DNA of 64,000 bases, taken from contig NZ_KB913017.1 in assembly GCF_000383975.1 (NCBI RefSeq), forward strand, positions 1,655,105-1,719,104. The letters run 5' to 3'. This document shows positions 41,451 to 58,499 of the stretch, in pieces (position 1 is the stretch's first letter; the number at the start of each line of letters is the position of its first letter). Source of the DNA: Natronorubrum tibetense GA33 (GTDB lineage: Archaea; Halobacteriota; Halobacteria; Halobacteriales; Natrialbaceae). The translations under genes were made by a program, and so were the position numbers. The notes under the pieces are model-generated. The model ran no database searches. It was not told where the DNA came from and worked only from the letters and a program-made list of their open reading frames with translations.

Positions 41451-42398
41451 ATGTCGGACGAGTCGGTGGACGACAGGGATGGTGAGGATCCCGTCGACGA
41501 AGCCGCGGAGCCACGGGAGGCGGACGACGAGCGCCCGCCTTCCGACGAGGATCACGATGGTGAGTCCGATCAACCGGTCGAAACCGACGGTGAGGGCATC
41601 GTCGATCGTCCCGACAGTATCGACGAACCCTCCTACCCCGATCCGGACGACGATGTCGGCGGCATCTCGACGCCGCCGGACGACGAGGAGATGCCGCTGG
41701 CCGACCACATCGAAGAGATGGTGCTCCGGTTCGCGGTCGTCTTGCTCGTCGGCGCGGCCGGGACCTCGATCGGACTGCTGTTCGCCTCGGACGCGATCAG
41801 CTACGTCTGGACGGATATCTTCCCCTACGCGTCCGAAGAGGTGCCGCCGCCGCACGTCTACCACCCGCTCGAGCTATGGCTGACCCGGATCAAGTTCTCG
41901 GCGCTGCTGGGGATTATGGTGGCGCTGCCGGTGTTCGTCTACCAATGTTACCTGTTCATGCGACCGGGGCTCTACCCCCACGAGCGCAAGTACTACCTCG
42001 CGGCGGTGCCGATGAGTGTCGTCCTCGCCGCGCTCGGAATGCTGTTTTCCTACGTGCTCGTGTTGCCGGTGCTCTTCCAGTACTTCACGTTCTACGCCGA
42101 GGGAAGCGCGAACATCGCGTACGCGCTCGGCGAGACGTTCGACCTGGTCATCACGCTGACCGGCTTCCTCGCGATCGTCTTCCAGATTCCGCTGTTCATC
42201 ATGCTCGCGATCATGATGGGCGTGACGACCCGCCGCTGGCTGGCGCAGAAACGGCTGTACTTCTGGGCAGCCTTCTTCGGGCTCTCCTTTATGTTCACCA
42301 TGGACCCGACGATGATGGCTCCCATCCTCGTCGCGCTCACCATGATCCTGCTGTTCGAGGGGACGCTGTTCGTCCTGAAGTGGGTCGGGCGGGAGTGA
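41451..42398 (+). CDS. tatC: Twin-arginine translocase subunit TatCo
   Basis: Single-domain TatC of 315 residues. An acidic, disordered N-terminus of about 85 residues precedes six transmembrane segments. The TatC hallmarks are DHIEEMVLRFAVV near the first helix, PVFVYQCYLFMRPGLYPHERKYY (in two parts) in the cytoplasmic loop, and a C-terminal FTMDPTMMAPILVAL. CCTATAAC at 41418-41425 gives a leaderless start at 41451. It is divergent from TatCt with 142 bases between the starts, so both TatC proteins may be co-regulated. No TatA gene is in the window. Confidence 0.93.
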   Translation: MSDESVDDRDGEDPVDEAAEPREADDERPPSDEDHDGESDQPVETDGEGIVDRPDSIDEPSYPDPDDDVGGISTPPDDEEMPLADHIEEMVLRFAVVLLVGAAGTSIGLLFASDAISYVWTDIFPYASEEVPPPHVYHPLELWLTRIKFSALLGIMVALPVFVYQCYLFMRPGLYPHERKYYLAAVPMSVVLAALGMLFSYVLVLPVLFQYFTFYAEGSANIAYALGETFDLVITLTGFLAIVFQIPLFIMLAIMMGVTTRRWLAQKRLYFWAAFFGLSFMFTMDPTMMAPILVALTMILLFEGTLFVLKWVGRE

Positions 42399-42720
42399 CC
42401 GTCCGATCTCTCGGCGCGTTGCGTTCGACGTTCGATTGTGAGCCGTCGGTCCCGTTATTTCGGTCGACTCGAGCGGACGGGTTCTGGCGCCAGCTATCGG
42501 AGCCACTGAACGTCACTGCAGACTCGATTGCACGAGGGCGTTGCGATCAGTGTGTAATTCGTTTCAGTTGTTGCTGTATCAGCCACCTCTACCGACGAAC
42601 CGTCTCGTGACGCGTGGACGCCCGTTCGGTCGACCGGCGTCGTCCGATACTCCACCGTCCTGATATTCCTCACATCCATCCGTATATTGTTACAATCCCT
42701 TCGTTATCGACTCAAAGAGT

Positions 42721-42853: not shown

Positions 42854-45034
42854 GTGTCGTCCGTGACGGAGCTCGTCCCGACGACGTGTATGCGCTGTGC
42901 GGTCGGCTGCGGACACGTTCAGCGAGCCGTCGACCAGGGATACGGCCTTGACGTCGTCCGGGGCGACGGTGCCCACCCGACGAACAACGGACTCGCCTGC
43001 CAGCGCGGCATCAGTGAGACCGTCGCTCCCGGCGGCGAGTGGCTGACGCGGCCGCTCGTTCGCCGGGACGGCGAACTGGCCCCGACGACCTGGGAGACTG
43101 CCCTCGAGCGCGCCGCAGAGGGGCTCGATACGGCACTCGAGGACGGCCCGGACAGCGTCTCCGTGCTCGGCAGCGGCCAGCAGACCAACGAAGCGGCCTA
43201 CGCACTCGGCAAACTCGCCCGCGGCGGGTTCGGCACTCGGTACTACGACGCCAACACGACGCTCTGTATGGCGTCGGCCGTCACCGCCTACTACGACGCC
43301 TTCGGCAGCGACGCGCCGCCGCCGACCTACGACGATATTCCCGAAGCGAAAACGCACCTCGTCTGGGGAGCCAACCCCGCGGCCGCCCACCCGGTCATGT
43401 TCCGGTGGATAAATCACTCGGCCCAACAGGACGGCTCCGAACTGATCGTGGTCGACCCCGTCGGGAGTGTGACCAGCAAGGTTGCCGACCACCACGTCCC
43501 CGTCGAACCGGGCGGCGACCTCGACCTCGCCCGCGCGGTCCTCGCCCGCGTCGTCGACACCGACCGCGTCGACGAGGCGTTCGTGGCCGAGGCGACGGAG
43601 GGATTCGACGAACTGCGAGCGCAACTTCCCGACGCCGAGACGGCCGCCGAAGCCGCCGGGGTCTCCCTCGCGGACGTCGACCGGATCGCTGACGCGCTCG
43701 AGGATCCCACGCTCATCTACTGGGGGATGGGGATCAATCAGAGCGTCAACGGGACGGCGGCGTCGGGCGCGTTAATCGATCTCTGTCTCGCGACGGGAAA
43801 CCTCCGCCCCGGCTCCGGTCCGTTCTCGTTGACCGGGCAGGCGAACTCGATGGGCACTCGCATCTGCTCGTCGAAGGGAAGCTGGCCAGGCCAGCGCCCC
43901 TTCACCGACCCCGAACACCGCGAGGTCGTCGCGGACGCCTGGGACGTTCCCGTCTCGCGACTCCCGGACGATACCGGCCCCGGTCCGGTCGGCATCGTCG
44001 ACGCGATCGGCGACGATGTCTCGGCCGTCTACGCCGTTGCGACCAATCCCGTCGCTGGCATGCCCGACGCGACGCAGGTTCGCGAGCGACTCGAGGACGC
44101 CTTCCTCGTCGTCCAGGACGCCTTCCGGAGCGAAACGGCCGAGTTCGCCGATGTCGTCCTGCCGGCAGCGACGTGGGGCGAATCCGAGGGGACGACGACC
44201 AACATGGAACGGACCGTCTCACGCGTGCGCGCTGCGACGGAGACGCCGTCGGGGATCAAGACGGACCTCGAGTTGATCGGCCAGCTCGCCGATCGACTCG
44301 TCCCCGACCTGTTCGACGAACCGCTCGAGCCGAAATCGACCTTCGAGGAGTTGGCGGCGCTGACTGCCGGGACGCCCGCCGACCTCTCGGGAATCGACTA
44401 CGAACGTCTCGAGGCCGAGGTCGCGGTTCGGTGGCCGGTTCCCGAGCCGGACGTCTCGGCCGGCTATCGCTACTACGAGGGACCGCTGGCCGACGGCGGC
44501 GAGAGGACTGACGATGCTGGTACCGGTGCTGGCGAGGCCGACGAATCGTGGTCGTTTCCGACCCCTTCCGGCCGCGCGCAGTTCTCGACGGGCGAGGCTC
44601 GGCCGCTCCCGGAGCCGACCGACGAGCAGTTCCCGCTGACGCTGACGACGGGGCGGCGACCGGACGCCTACAACACGGGCGTTCGCACTCGCGAGGACGA
44701 CCCGCCGACGGCGCGCGTCAGTCCCGCGACCGCCGCGGCGCTCACGGACGAACTCGACGACTGGGAGTCGGCCGCGGACGAGGACGGGGCCGACGACGCC
44801 GCGAAGTACACGCAGGTTGTCTCCCGCCGAGCCTCGGTCACGGCCCGCGTCGAGGCCGACGAGTCGATTCCCGACGGCGTCGTCTGGCTTCCGATCCACC
44901 ACCCCGCCGTCAACGATCTCACCGTTTCGGACGTCGATCCGCGATCGAAGGAGCCGAACTTCAAACAGTGTGCGGTGCGACTCGAGGGGTCTCACGAGCG
45001 GGAGACCAGGGCCGTCACCGAAGTCAGCACCTGA
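42854..45034 (+). CDS. nasA: Assimilatory nitrate reductase (molybdopterin enzyme)
   Basis: Mo-bisMGD oxidoreductase of 726 residues, reducing nitrate to nitrite in the cytoplasm. The N-terminal [4Fe-4S] motif is TTCMRCAVGCGHVQ with the fourth Cys in LACQRG. The catalytic core has GSGQQTNEAAY, WGANPAAAHPV and WGMGINQSVNG, and the C-terminal MopB_CT domain begins at LTLTTGRRPDAYNTG. It closely resembles haloarchaeal NasA. A formate dehydrogenase is less likely because the overall pattern lacks its features. The true start may be the GTG at 42863, which has the better Shine-Dalgarno spacing. No nitrite reductase or nitrate transporter adjoins it. Confidence 0.87.
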   Translation: MSSVTELVPTTCMRCAVGCGHVQRAVDQGYGLDVVRGDGAHPTNNGLACQRGISETVAPGGEWLTRPLVRRDGELAPTTWETALERAAEGLDTALEDGPDSVSVLGSGQQTNEAAYALGKLARGGFGTRYYDANTTLCMASAVTAYYDAFGSDAPPPTYDDIPEAKTHLVWGANPAAAHPVMFRWINHSAQQDGSELIVVDPVGSVTSKVADHHVPVEPGGDLDLARAVLARVVDTDRVDEAFVAEATEGFDELRAQLPDAETAAEAAGVSLADVDRIADALEDPTLIYWGMGINQSVNGTAASGALIDLCLATGNLRPGSGPFSLTGQANSMGTRICSSKGSWPGQRPFTDPEHREVVADAWDVPVSRLPDDTGPGPVGIVDAIGDDVSAVYAVATNPVAGMPDATQVRERLEDAFLVVQDAFRSETAEFADVVLPAATWGESEGTTTNMERTVSRVRAATETPSGIKTDLELIGQLADRLVPDLFDEPLEPKSTFEELAALTAGTPADLSGIDYERLEAEVAVRWPVPEPDVSAGYRYYEGPLADGGERTDDAGTGAGEADESWSFPTPSGRAQFSTGEARPLPEPTDEQFPLTLTTGRRPDAYNTGVRTREDDPPTARVSPATAAALTDELDDWESAADEDGADDAAKYTQVVSRRASVTARVEADESIPDGVVWLPIHHPAVNDLTVSDVDPRSKEPNFKQCAVRLEGSHERETRAVTEVST

Positions 45035-51112: not shown

Positions 51113-51348
51113 ACTCGAGGTGGAATCTGGTCGGCTATCACGGTGTTTCGGCGGCTGCTCTCGTCGCAGGTCAGTTGCACCATTCTGGGGTCGTAGCGGG
51201 GGTCGCTACCGTCGGGTTTTCACATAGTTGTACGCGTTTCGTTGAAGTGACGGTGCCTGCAGCCGCTTGCCGTTTCTCCCAGTCGGTACGCCCGCCCGTC
51301 GAATCGGTTCGCGGGCCGTCTCGGCTGTCAGCTACTGGCCGTCGTTGC

Positions 51349-51432
51349 TATAGTAACAACTGAAACGATTTACACACTGATCGCATAGCCGTCATGCGAT
51401 CAGGTGTGCATTGACTTTCAGTGGCTACTATA
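51349..51432. mobile_element. 84-bp palindromic element, copy 1
   Basis: Starts TATAGTAACAACTGAAA and ends TTTCAGTGGCTACTATA; the ends pair with two mismatches. An inner stem GATCGCAT / ATGCGATC is perfect. It differs from copy 2 at four of 84 positions. The right end lies inside the 3' end of the DUF892 gene on the minus strand and gives its stop (TGA at 51418-51420). No direct target duplication is obvious. It resembles a MITE. Confidence 0.75.
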
Positions 51433-51924
51433 CGTCTCGTCGGCGGCGACCAGTTCCAGCACCGAGCGCTCGGTTTCGATCGCTTCGAGCGCGTCGAGGG
51501 TGGCTCGCTCCTCCTCGAGAATCGCCTCGAGCGGTTCGACGATATCCTCGGCGTAAGCGAGTCGACCGGCGAGGGTGAGCAGCGACTCGTAGGTCCTGAT
51601 CTCGAGGCGCTCCGAGATGAGGGCGATCTCGAGGGCGGTCGGGATGGCCTCCGGCGACTCCTCGTGCTGTCGCCACGATTCAGCCACGCCGTCGGCGGTT
51701 CGCGTTCGACTCGCGCGTGGCTGTCGGCCGAGCGCCTCGAAGAGGCCCTCGAGCCGGACGACGTGCTCTTCGGTCTGCTCGCGGTGGGTCGCGAGCCGGT
51801 CGGCGAGGTCGTCGTCAGACGTATTCGCCGCCATTTCGGCCAGCAGTTCGACCTGCGTTCGTTCGACGTAGTACGCGCGCTGGAGCTGATAGCCGAACAG
51901 ATCTTCGAGCGTTTCGACGTTCAT
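51418..51924 (-). CDS. DUF892 ferritin-like protein (YciE-type), truncated or extended by an element
   Basis: Protein of 168 residues, ferritin-like four-helix bundle: MNVETLEDLFGYQLQRAYYV start, then a second helix pair with EIRTYESLLTLAGRLAY and LEAILEEERATLDALEAIE. Such proteins carry metal-binding Glu/His pairs and are stress-linked. The last residues (about 163-168, ending YSSH) and the stop codon come from the 84-bp element, so the original C-terminus may differ. A GTG at 51954 is an alternative start. It lies 16 bases after the next DUF892 gene and is probably in one operon with it. Confidence 0.8.
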   Translation of the reverse strand: MNVETLEDLFGYQLQRAYYVERTQVELLAEMAANTSDDDLADRLATHREQTEEHVVRLEGLFEALGRQPRASRTRTADGVAESWRQHEESPEAIPTALEIALISERLEIRTYESLLTLAGRLAYAEDIVEPLEAILEEERATLDALEAIETERSVLELVAADETYSSH

Positions 51925-51940
51925 GGATTGGGGTCTCGGA

Positions 51941-52585
51941 TTACGATTGGTCACGCCAGGAGCGGTCGAGCGTTTCCCGCGAAGTGTTGTCGACCGGATG
52001 CGCCTCGAGCAGCGTTTCCACGGCCTCGCCGTCGAGCAGCGACTCGAGTTCGCTCCGGACCTGTCGCTCGTCGTCGTAGCTGTCCTGCAGCGCGTCGACG
52101 ACCTCGCTGGCGCCCTCGATCGCGTTGTCGCCGGTTCGAGACGTCTTCGACGCTCCGCTGGCCTCGAGTTCGGTCGCCAGCGCCATCGTCGTCTCGTAGA
52201 CCGTACACTCGATCGCCTCGAGTTGCAGGACCGTCTGGATGTAGTACAGCGGTCGAATCGCGTCGTTCAACACGACGTTGTTGAACGCCTCCTTGTCGGC
52301 GATCAGGCCGTCGAGTTCCGGAACTGGTCGGCTGTCGGGCTCCGTGTCGAGGGCGTCGAAGGCCCGTTCGATCCGCTCGAGGTGGACCTCGGTGTCCTCG
52401 CGGTGGCCGTCGATCACGTACTGGAGTTGCTCGCGACACTCCAGTTCGCGTATGTCGTCGAGCGAGTCGACCGCGACGTCGGTCGAGAGCGTTTTGAGCG
52501 CGGACTGTAACGTCTGCTCGATGTAGTACAGCCGTTCTAACTGGGCGACGAGCGCGTCGTGTGGGGTCGTCGATGCGGTACTCAT
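51941..52585 (-). CDS. DUF892 ferritin-like protein (paralogue)
   Basis: Protein of 214 residues, related to the downstream DUF892 gene but longer. Helical: LVAQLERLYYIEQTLQSALK, then VIDGHREDTEVHLERIERAF, and in the second half YIQTVLQLEAIECTVYETTM and YDDERQVRSELESLLDGEA. The central Glu/His-rich pairs suggest a di-metal site, but I cannot confirm the order. Tandem DUF892 genes probably arose by duplication. The ATG at 52585 is the start. Confidence 0.8.
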   Translation of the reverse strand: MSTASTTPHDALVAQLERLYYIEQTLQSALKTLSTDVAVDSLDDIRELECREQLQYVIDGHREDTEVHLERIERAFDALDTEPDSRPVPELDGLIADKEAFNNVVLNDAIRPLYYIQTVLQLEAIECTVYETTMALATELEASGASKTSRTGDNAIEGASEVVDALQDSYDDERQVRSELESLLDGEAVETLLEAHPVDNTSRETLDRSWRDQS

Positions 52586-55180: not shown

Positions 55181-55255
55181 AGCCGAGCCTAGGCAACGAG
55201 ACGGGAAAGTAGTACCGAGGTTCGGTCGACGAACGGTGCCGAGACGGTAGTTCAG

Positions 55256-55339
55256 TATAGTAACAACTGAAACTATTTACACACTGATCGCACAGCTGTC
55301 GTGCGATCAGGTGTGCATTGACTTTCAGTGGCTACTATA
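55256..55339. mobile_element. 84-bp palindromic element, copy 2
   Basis: Same ends as copy 1 (TATAGTAACAACTGAAA and TTTCAGTGGCTACTATA). The inner stem reads GATCGCAC / GTGCGATC, so both arms changed together relative to copy 1. The right end overlaps the 3' end of the PH-domain gene on the minus strand and supplies its stop (55325-55327). Flanking bases show no clear target duplication. Confidence 0.78.
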
Positions 55340-55909
55340 GTCGCCGGCCTTCCGCTCGGACTGTCGCTGCCGGATCGTGTTCGCTACGTCGTCGTAGTTC
55401 GGTACGCCCGAAAGCGACAGCGCATTCGTTCGGCCGAACCCCTGCGGGATCACCGCGTGCGAGACGGCGATCGTCCCGAACCCTCGTCCGCGGCTGAAGG
55501 CCGTCGTACTCGTCTGTAGTCCGCGAATGTCTTCCATCCACGTCTCGGTCGTCTTCCTGGCGGTGAATCCCGCGATCACGATGATCCGCCGATCGGTGAC
55601 GAGGTAGCGGACTCGGTTCCGTCGATACCAGACGTATCCCCCGATCACGAGTCCGGTAACGAGTCCGAGCAACGCCGCCGCTGCGCTCCCACCCGCGATG
55701 CCGGCCAACCCGACCAGTCCGGCCAGTCCGCCGACAGCGGCGTGGGCGATCCAGTTCCACCACGTCGGCTGCGCGTCGACGAGGACTTCCTCGCCCTCGA
55801 GCAGCGTGAGCGCTCCCGGCGATTCGGACCAATCTGAACGATCCGGGTCGCGGTCGCCCGTCTCGGCTTCGTCGTACGCTAACTCCGATTTATCGCGTTT
55901 CCGACTCAT
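55325..55909 (-). CDS. PH-domain membrane protein, C-terminus supplied by an element
   Basis: Protein of 194 residues. An acidic N-terminus, two hydrophobic segments (about 54-90) and a bacterial-PH-like domain (about 98-185; YLVTDRRIIVIAGFTARKTT, then TIAVSHAVIPQGFG). Homologues with two or more PH domains bind other membrane proteins or lipids; the function here is unknown. The last residues (YSSH) and the stop come from palindromic element copy 2. The original end may have been different. Confidence 0.78.
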   Translation of the reverse strand: MSRKRDKSELAYDEAETGDRDPDRSDWSESPGALTLLEGEEVLVDAQPTWWNWIAHAAVGGLAGLVGLAGIAGGSAAAALLGLVTGLVIGGYVWYRRNRVRYLVTDRRIIVIAGFTARKTTETWMEDIRGLQTSTTAFSRGRGFGTIAVSHAVIPQGFGRTNALSLSGVPNYDDVANTIRQRQSERKAGDYSSH

Positions 55910-56027: not shown

Positions 56028-56390
56028 TCAGACGGCGTCCGATCCAGTCTTTCCGGTCCGAACCTGATAGGCGTCGTCGACGGGCAGCACGAAAATTTTC
56101 CCGTCGCCCGGTTCGCCGGTGTTCGCGGCCTCGCCGATGGCCTCGACGACCTCTTCGGCGGGGATGTCGGCGACGACGCACTCGATTTTGACCTTCTGGT
56201 GGAGGTCGACCGTGTACTCCTCGCCGCGCCACTGCCCTTTTTTCGCGGGTTGGGAGCCGCGACCGGAGACGTTCGTAACCGTCAGCGACGGGGCCCCGAC
56301 TTCGGCGAGCGCCTCCTTGACCGCACCGAGGCGGTCGGGGCGGATGATCGCGGTGATCAGCTTGAGTTCGCCGTCGTTCGACTCGGTCAC
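56028..56390 (-). CDS. glnK: PII nitrogen-regulatory protein GlnK
   Basis: PII protein of 120 residues. It senses 2-oxoglutarate, ATP and ADP and closes ammonium transporters. Motifs: [20 protein letters not shown], the T-loop [20 protein letters not shown] and the C-terminal [20 protein letters not shown]. The upstream frame is long, but the usual PII N-terminus implies a GTG at 56390 (GTG ACC GAG), leaving only seven residues before the core. It is nearly identical to the C-terminal domain of the adjacent Amt fusion (five differences in about 115 residues). Confidence 0.92.
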
Positions 56391-56777
56391 CTCGAGACCC
56401 CTCCACTCGTCGTCACGTTGCCGTACACTGTGGGATAGCTGTCCGTACGACGCCGTTGCTTGACTCGAGTTATCCGTACAGTCACATCTAGGTCCGACGC
56501 CCCATTCCCACGTAAGGGTTCGCGTCGACATTCGGCTGCGACCACGGCTAACTCGGTGCAAACGGTCGACACCCGCTGGATTACCGTCTGAATAAGACGC
56601 CAGTGCCGTCCTTTCACAATCGTGGAAGTTCGGGGCTCGTTCCAACCCGTGAGCGCCCGATTGCAGGGGAAACGCTGTCGCTTACAGCCCGTCTCGGTAG
56701 TCACTACGGGGATTCTGGGACGCCCACAAAAAGGCGACTGCAAAAGAAACGGCTCTCTGACGACCTCGTTGTCCCGT
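56391..56777. other. Gene-free spacer between amt-glnK and glnK
   Basis: Holds the promoter of glnK and T-runs downstream of the fusion gene. No further frame is convincing, although a long in-frame extension of glnK crosses it by chance. I see no clear operator. Confidence 0.45.
56728..56750 (-). terminator. T-runs after the amt-glnK fusion
   Basis: On the minus strand, TTTCTTTT (about 56740-56748) and CTTTTTG (about 56728-56734) follow the fusion stop within 50 bases, typical of archaeal termination signals. Confidence 0.5.
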
Positions 56778-58499
56778 TCAGACGGCGTCCTGTCCGGTGT
56801 TTCCGGTCCGGACCTGGTAGGCGTCGTCGACGGGCAGCACGAAGATTTTGCCGTCACCCGGCTCGCCGGTGTTGGCGGATTCGCCGATGGCCTCGACGAC
56901 CTCTTCGGCGGGGATGTCGGCGACGACGCACTCGATTTTGACCTTCTGGTGGAGGTCGACCGTGTACTCTTCGCCGCGCCACTGGCCTTTCTTTGCGGGC
57001 TGGGAGCCGCGACCGGAGACGTTCGTAACGGTCAGCGACGGCGCGCCGGTCTCAGCGAGGGCCTTCTTGACCGCACCGAGGCGGTCGGGACGGATGATCG
57101 CCGTGATCAGCTTGAGTTCGCCGTCGTTCGGCTCGCCACCATCGGTACGGATGATCTTATCGTTACCACCGTCGGTTGCGACGTCAGGCCCACCGAATTC
57201 GGGGTAGGTGTCGACGCCGTGTTCGGCGAGGTCGAGTCCGTCGCGTTCGTGGTCGGGCGTGACGCGTGCCTGACCGATTGCCTTGAACGCGCCCCAGACG
57301 GCTGCGGTCGCCACGACCGTCCAGATCGTGATGACCGCGACGCCGATGATCTGGGGAGCGAACGCGCTCGCTTCGATAGAGAGGATGCCGCCGGCGATGA
57401 CGCCGCCGCCGATGGCGGATCCCTCGAGCGACCAGAGCGGGTAGATGATCAGGCCGAGCATTCCCGCGGTCCCGTGGACCGGGAACACTGCACAGACGTC
57501 GTCAATTTTGAGCGTCTCGTCGACGAACTTGAAGACGATGGGGAGCTGTGCGCCGGCGAGGAAGCCGATCGCGATCGCACCCATCGGGGTGATGAGGTCC
57601 GTCGGACCAGTGACGCCGACGAGTCCGGCGAGCATGCCGTTCGCGACGTAGAGCGTGTCGACTTTCCCGTTCATGAACAGCGAGACGGACGACGCACCGA
57701 GCGCGCCGAGCCCCATCCCGAGGGAGGTGACCATCGCAATGCTCCCGACGTAGTCGAAGTCAGCCAGTTCGAACGTTTCGGGGTTGATGACCGTCGCGGC
57801 CGTTCCGACGTTGAAGCCGAACCAGCCGAAACAGAGTATCAGCGTCCCCAACACGGCGAACGTCATCGAGTGGCCGGGAATGATGTTGACGCTGCCGTCG
57901 TCGTTGTACTTGTCCATACGAGCGCCGAGGATCCAGGCGGCCGTCAGGCCGGCGACGCCGCCGACACCGTGGACGACCATGCCACCCGCGAAGTCAGCGA
58001 AGCCGAGATCGGCGAGGATCGGCGTGCCCTCGGGGGCGTACCAGACCATCGCCGCGACGACCGGGTAGATGACTGCGGCGAGCAGAAAGGTGTACGTCAC
58101 GTACGCGCGGAGTTTCGCGCGACCGGCGACAGCACCGGACACGATCGTGGCGGCGGTCATCGCGAACACCGCGCTGAACAGCCACATCACCCAGTCGAAC
58201 GATTCCTGTCCGAACATCGTCCAGTCGCTGGATTCGCCGCCACCGAGCGCCGCACCGACGTTGTTCGACAGTCCCATCCCGATGATAAAGAAGACGAAGA
58301 TGCCGACCGCCCAGGTCAGCATGTTCTTCGTCAACTGGTTCGCGACGTTCTTCGAGCGGACCTGCCCCGCCTCGAGCATCGCGAACCCCGCGTGCATGAA
58401 GAAGATCAGGAACGTCACCGTCAACGCCCACATCAGGTTCATCCCCGTCGCAATCGACTCGAGATCAGCCGTCTCCTGAAGCGGTACTGCCTCGATCAT
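56778..58499 (-). CDS. amt: Ammonium transporter fused to a C-terminal PII domain (Amt-GlnK)
   Basis: One frame of 573 residues. Residues 1 to about 430 are an Amt channel with about eleven helices, and the hallmark [35 protein letters not shown] and [13 protein letters not shown] (with the two channel His). A short linker ([16 protein letters not shown]) leads into a complete PII domain (about 460-573) with T-loop [16 protein letters not shown]. In most organisms GlnK is separate and moves to the channel; here it is tethered. A TATA-like TTATAT at 58619-58624 and the palindrome at 58648-58663 precede it. Confidence 0.93.

Follow-up and report, generated by a model that had tools for sequence, protein, structure and literature searches.

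Two unrelated genes in the window (the whole stretch of DNA that was analysed, 64,000 nucleotides of Natronorubrum tibetense GA33) owe their identical 3′ ends to two copies of a short repeated element. This element is, very probably, a non-autonomous MITE of the IS630/Tc1-mariner type that resides in Natrialbaceae, inserts into TA, often within CTAG, and at times strikes stop codons in a manner tolerated by the host, with no terminator function needed to explain its positions.

In agreement with the preliminary description, the PH-domain gene was found to end with YSSH and a TGA derived from copy 2 of the element, in the same orientation and reading frame as the DUF892 gene with copy 1 (Table 1). 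The final 15 bases of both genes are identical, and the C-terminus of the DUF892 protein reads ...ETYSSH*. The two genes are unrelated to each other, as had also been stated: Pfam assigns their products to PF03703 (bPH_2; E 1.5e-7) and PF05974 (DUF892; E 1.4e-25), respectively.

Table 1. Coordinates of the genes, element copies and insertion sites in the window.
Feature	Position	Strand	Remarks
PH-domain gene (bPH_2)	55325..55909	-	194 aa; ORF, Pfam and orthologues
Right end of the element, in frame in the PH-domain gene	55325..55339	-	TAT AGT AGC CAC TGA (YSSH, stop); encodes the four terminal residues and the stop
DUF892 gene	51418..51954	-	178 aa; final 15 bases (51418-51432) element-derived; ORF, Pfam and orthologues
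Native TAG stop of the DUF892 gene, displaced	51348..51350	-	TA, insertion target; empty-site orthologue in L228
Original final codon and stop of the PH-domain gene, displaced	55252..55257	-	TAC TGA; TA of TAC, insertion target; sequence and orthologues
MITE copy 1	51349..51432	+	80-bp element 51351-51430 between duplicated TA; orientation as copy 2
MITE copy 2	55256..55339	+	80-bp element 55258-55337 between duplicated TA (55256-55257, 55338-55339); left end TATAGTAACAACTGAAA begins at 55256, right end closes at 55339
MITE copy 3, degenerate	42495..42578	-	Intergenic, between called genes 41451-42398 and 42863-45034

Two further features of this region were recorded. The DUF892 gene is preceded, immediately upstream and in tandem, by a weakly similar second gene (51418-52585 for the pair, minus strand). 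At 56028-58499 (minus strand), a gene for an ammonium transporter that has a P-II domain fused to its C-terminus (PF00909 and PF00543) adjoins a stand-alone P-II gene; the fused and stand-alone P-II coding stretches share 91% identity over 300 nt, which suggests a recent duplication or gene conversion.

Structure and copy number of the element

Copies 1 and 2 of the 84-bp repeat are 95% identical, and both gene endings correspond to its right end. The end motif of the element was matched 6 times in the window (0.04 expected), and searches of the whole genome with a 17-bp end motif yielded 124 matches, compared to 1 with a reversed control. The genome (4.93 Mb, five contigs) contains approximately 60 copies. 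The element was detected in 33 of the 61 genomes searched, including that of the window, with exact-pattern matches in Natrinema, Natrialba, Natronorubrum, Natrarchaeobius, Halostagnicola, Halovivax, Halostella and others.

The copy census is a sample biased toward copies near the query; 209 of the 234 copies analysed in it are 84 bp long. The TATAGTA/TACTATA and ACTGAAA/TTTCAGT stems are paired in most copies, and the element is nearly palindromic and contains no ORF. It is short, non-coding, multicopy and bordered by terminal inverted repeats (TIRs), as is typical of MITEs. Longer copies (141–323 bp) were also observed (L010, L012, L017, L033, L034, L036 and L045); they carry extra palindromic loop inserts of the CGCGGTTCTCGCTC...GAACCGCG type.

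Empty sites and the origin of the gene ends

The DUF892 orthologue of L228, a genome of the same genus (88% protein identity, matching downstream DNA), has an empty site, ...GACGATACG-TAG-CGACGCC, as compared to the filled site of the window, GACGAGACG-TA[80 bp]TA-GCAACGACGG. Judging from this comparison, the insertion target was the TA of the native TAG stop codon. Orthologues of the PH-domain gene end with GAG-TAC-TGA (L220, L221), GAC-CGC-TGA (L219) or CGG-TAC-TGA (L222, L223), their protein ends being ...VEY*, ...GDR* and ...GRY*; in L219, L220 and L221 the gene is followed by the same aminotransferase gene as in the window. The filled site of the window reads GGCGAC-TA[80 bp]TA-CTGAAC, from which we infer an ancestral end GAC-TAC-TGA (...GDY*) whose final codon, TAC, provided the target TA. 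Relative to the orthologues, TA is duplicated at both window copies. By these empty sites, the element itself therefore measures 80 bp, and its insertion duplicates 2 bp, the TA. The net gain was four residues (YSSH) for the DUF892 protein and three (SSH) for the PH-domain protein.

The right end, read in frame 0 from TA, encodes YSSH (Table 1), while the left end encodes YSNN (TAT-AGT-AAC-AAC-TGA); with the target TA at codon positions 2-3, TAG is formed immediately. In the 27 gene-end copies that are translated in frame 0, the added peptide is YSSH (11 copies), YSNN (6), YSSN (6) or another (4), and in the window's genome the element terminates seven proteins, five with YSSH and two with YSNN. 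In view of this spread, the occurrence of the right end in both window genes is unremarkable, and the special orientation that the two genes had been thought to share is not borne out. They end alike because the element targets TA/CTAG and has a fixed end sequence; both are ordinary instances of accidental insertion, tolerated by the cell.

Target site and relationship to IS630 elements

Alignment of the target sites of 147 oriented copies gave a logo with C (65%) before the TA and G (76%) behind it, and CTAG was present at 91 of 175 sites. Both the duplication of TA and a preference for the TA in CTAG have been established for IS630 (Tenzen and Ohtsubo 1991, as cited in PMC2170065).

A search for the DDE_3 domain in the 61 genomes identified IS630-type elements of approximately 1061 bp, typically with the ends CTATAGTAACCGTTAGAA / CTATAGTAGNCGTTAGAA; C...G flanks were seen at the ends of many of them (among L257-L286). 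This end pattern occurs in 15 of the 61 genomes. Relatives with TATAGTA ends encode a DDE transposase of the IS630 type (PF13358, DDE_3, E down to 1e-40). The window's genome contains one such end pair (C2:197640-198694) enclosing a decayed transposase, in whose N-terminal half HTH_33, HTH_32 and HTH_29 were recognized. The MITE and the IS630-family elements of the same archaea have in common the outermost 7-8 bp (TATAGTA) and, in many IS630 copies, the left/right asymmetry (AAC vs AG) and the C|TA|G target. IS630-family insertion sequences are thus the likely source of the transposase, as far as can be judged from their ends and targets. The exact parent IS is unproven, since the inner TIR differs (ACTGAAA in the MITE, GTTAGAA in the known IS630 elements).

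No IS with exact MITE ends was present in the sequence searched: pairs of such ends at a spacing of 340-3500 bp, as expected of an autonomous element, were chance or nested pairs only. Several MITE-rich genomes have no known IS630 ends. A second IS630 group (L272, C5:103577), with two copies in the window's genome, was rejected as the source, its ends being mismatched with those of the MITE.

One IS630 element (L257:1363-2503) is nested within a MITE copy. In another (L262:1427-2485), the TATAGTA-type transposase is split between two overlapping frames, with the junction close to an A-rich run, an arrangement that looks like programmed frameshifting.

Distribution of the insertions relative to genes

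Each empty site was restored in silico, and genes were called with our own dicodon gene finder in place of a published annotation. The null model comprised every TA site of this DNA, with the neighbouring bases matched. For the 234 copies, coding insertions were depleted approximately five- to six-fold (20 vs 109 expected), and the numbers of intergenic (183 vs 108.8), stop-codon TA (24 vs 12.8) and last-five-codon (7 vs 3.3) insertions were above expectation. However, for each intergenic insertion there were 0.13 in stop codons, close to the 0.12 of the null model, and if stop codons were as available as average intergenic DNA, approximately 17 insertions would be expected in them against the 24 observed. 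The suggestion that the element is selected at, or prefers, stop codons therefore found no support in these counts.

The position profile around genes was calculated with a fuller target matrix and target-weighted TA sites. The strongest enrichment was found 0–10 nt after stops (19 copies vs 2.2 expected), followed by 11–60 nt (39 vs 10.0), whereas the ≤60 nt preceding starts showed none (25 vs 24.6). The 3′ bias is real, but its maximum lies immediately after the stop codon rather than on it. Coding locations account for 12 of 102 young copies and 1 of 61 older ones, as expected under the purging of harmful insertions. The claim that the element is tolerated at gene 3′ ends thus holds, with coding DNA depleted and the 60 nt behind stops enriched, and with a stop often supplied by the element itself. 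The distribution relative to gene ends is also not the random one against which that claim had been set. It is consistent with a combination of target choice and purging at other locations, two factors that are not fully separable.

Alternative explanations

That both genes share four residues and a stop might be read as a conserved YSSH peptide motif, the repeat itself being immobile. Such a reading has practically no credibility, for the orthologues of both genes contain neither YSSH nor the repeat, the identity spans 84 bp and so extends far beyond the codons, and other frames and ends yield other peptides; the empty sites, on the evidence of these orthologues, have already refuted it. Another proposal is that the stop-bearing ends evolved to limit damage, so that CTAG-targeting elements carry in-frame stops and settle at gene ends. 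Indeed, TGA was offered to the gene in 25 of 27 gene-end copies, compared to 61% of intergenic ends (Fisher p 0.0007; a stratified permutation expects 17.8, p 0.001), and the bias was seen at stop and near-stop sites, the value for intergenic copies ≤60 nt 3′ being 54%. A frame-0 stop likewise occurs at the fifth codon of the IS630 ends (TAT AGT AAC CGT TAG), and two other IS630 groups (L278, L282) have G after the target TA at both ends, so that a TAG stop struck by them would be restored exactly. However, a fresh replication set taken alone was not significant (8/9 vs 76%, p 0.68), and subfamilies with CTGCAA or CTGGAA, in which the frame-0 TGA is lost, are both common. Moreover, subfamily is inseparable from selection, since the end that is not read is also rich in TGA (22/27). 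Filtering of survivors, with insertions that quickly restore a stop being kept, generates the same bias with no adaptation of the element and is the simplest reading of the excess. Evolved damage limitation is therefore considered doubtful, and of the ready-made stop postulated in the preliminary description, the TGA excess over all gene-end copies stands, but it did not reach significance in the replication set.

The element had also been proposed to act as a terminator. In the form considered here, it would be retained behind genes because its hairpin terminates transcription or stabilises the mRNA 3′ end. The over-representation of copies within 60 nt after stops and the stable folding of the 84-mer RNA (-38 to -43 kcal/mol) are compatible with this idea, and in an experimental test in Haloferax volcanii 59% of transcripts ended at a hairpin (PMC7237163), by analogy with which the element may exert a weak terminator effect. 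In that archaeon, however, the main intergenic signal consists of T-stretches (95% termination; PMC7237163), and the element consensus contains no run of five T on either strand. Neither window copy has a terminator-like match, and Rfam gave no match above the gathering score in the window. The element end facing the upstream gene is random (44 right vs 40 left), and the loss of stem pairing in older copies is no slower at 3′ ends than upstream of genes. Compensatory changes are evident in the stem itself (pairs 15-70, 30-54, 31-53 and 37-47 of the 84-mer), in which overall pairing is 95.4% vs 90.2% for shuffled partners, a difference inflated by related copies. Overall, G-T mismatches are roughly as frequent as A-C ones (121 vs 107), and on the transcribed strand of the 3′ copies there is no excess of G-U over A-C (9 vs 23), which suggests that the constraint on the stem acts on DNA, e.g. 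through transposase recognition or palindrome repair, and not on RNA. A role in termination is thus improbable, more so than the evolved stop, and this part of the preliminary description was not upheld: the T-tract, an RNA-strand signature and extra stem maintenance at 3′ ends were all lacking.

Discussion

The preferred explanation is that of a mobile IS630-type MITE. An IS630-type transposase would excise the element and paste it into a TA; since a TAG stop after C forms a CTAG site, some insertions would strike stop codons. The native stop would thereby be shifted 82 bp downstream, and translation of the gene would run on, in frame 0, through the end of the element. The YSSH* and YSNN* tails may be understood in this way, because the displaced stop lets the gene read the right or the left end, respectively, with an extension of only 3-4 residues. 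Insertions in coding regions would be purged, and those at or just behind gene ends would survive.

The element resembles the insertion sequences and MITEs of the IS630/Tc1-mariner group, e.g. RUP of Streptococcus pneumoniae with IS630-Spn1, and ISY100, in its TA target and duplication, high copy number and absence of an ORF; it shares the CTAG preference with IS630 and a short TIR sequence with the IS630-type elements of related genomes. It differs from RUP and ISY100 in its archaeal host family, its length of 84 bp, its nearly fully palindromic structure and its conserved left/right asymmetry. Correia/NEMIS and ERIC/RU-1 are likewise small palindromes with 5′-TA termini and target duplication (PMC2229807, PMC2759123), sometimes fused to gene 3′ ends with replacement of the stop (ECA3499, PMC2759123). 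However, they inhabit other hosts, the likeness is known from the TA ends only, and their fusions read further into the element, in contrast to the four codons mostly read here.

Haloarchaeal mobile repeats devoid of a transposase comprise, in the account of PMC3119063, the MITEs of Haloquadratum, SMRs and PATEs. As described there, the TIRs of the Haloquadratum MITE class are related to a transposon, a likeness to the present element, while SMRs (no target duplication, TIRs unlike those of any transposon) and PATEs (without TIRs) are set apart from it. An origin as a PATE or IS200-IS605 derivative was ruled out by the presence of TIRs and of the TA duplication. A literature search yielded no description of the element, but this absence is weak evidence, much of the literature having been outside its scope.

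More broadly, it is conceivable, though rather unlikely, that haloarchaeal CTAG-targeting IS630 elements and their MITEs maintain terminal stops as a built-in stop cassette, since their insertions often strike stops. The empty sites show a miniature transposon inserting into TA/CTAG and rewriting the C-termini of archaeal proteins. The recurrent YSSH, YSNN and YSSN tails of Natrialbaceae proteins are thereby explained as insertion scars, and the element offers a countable system for how purifying selection shapes the sites at which such elements survive.
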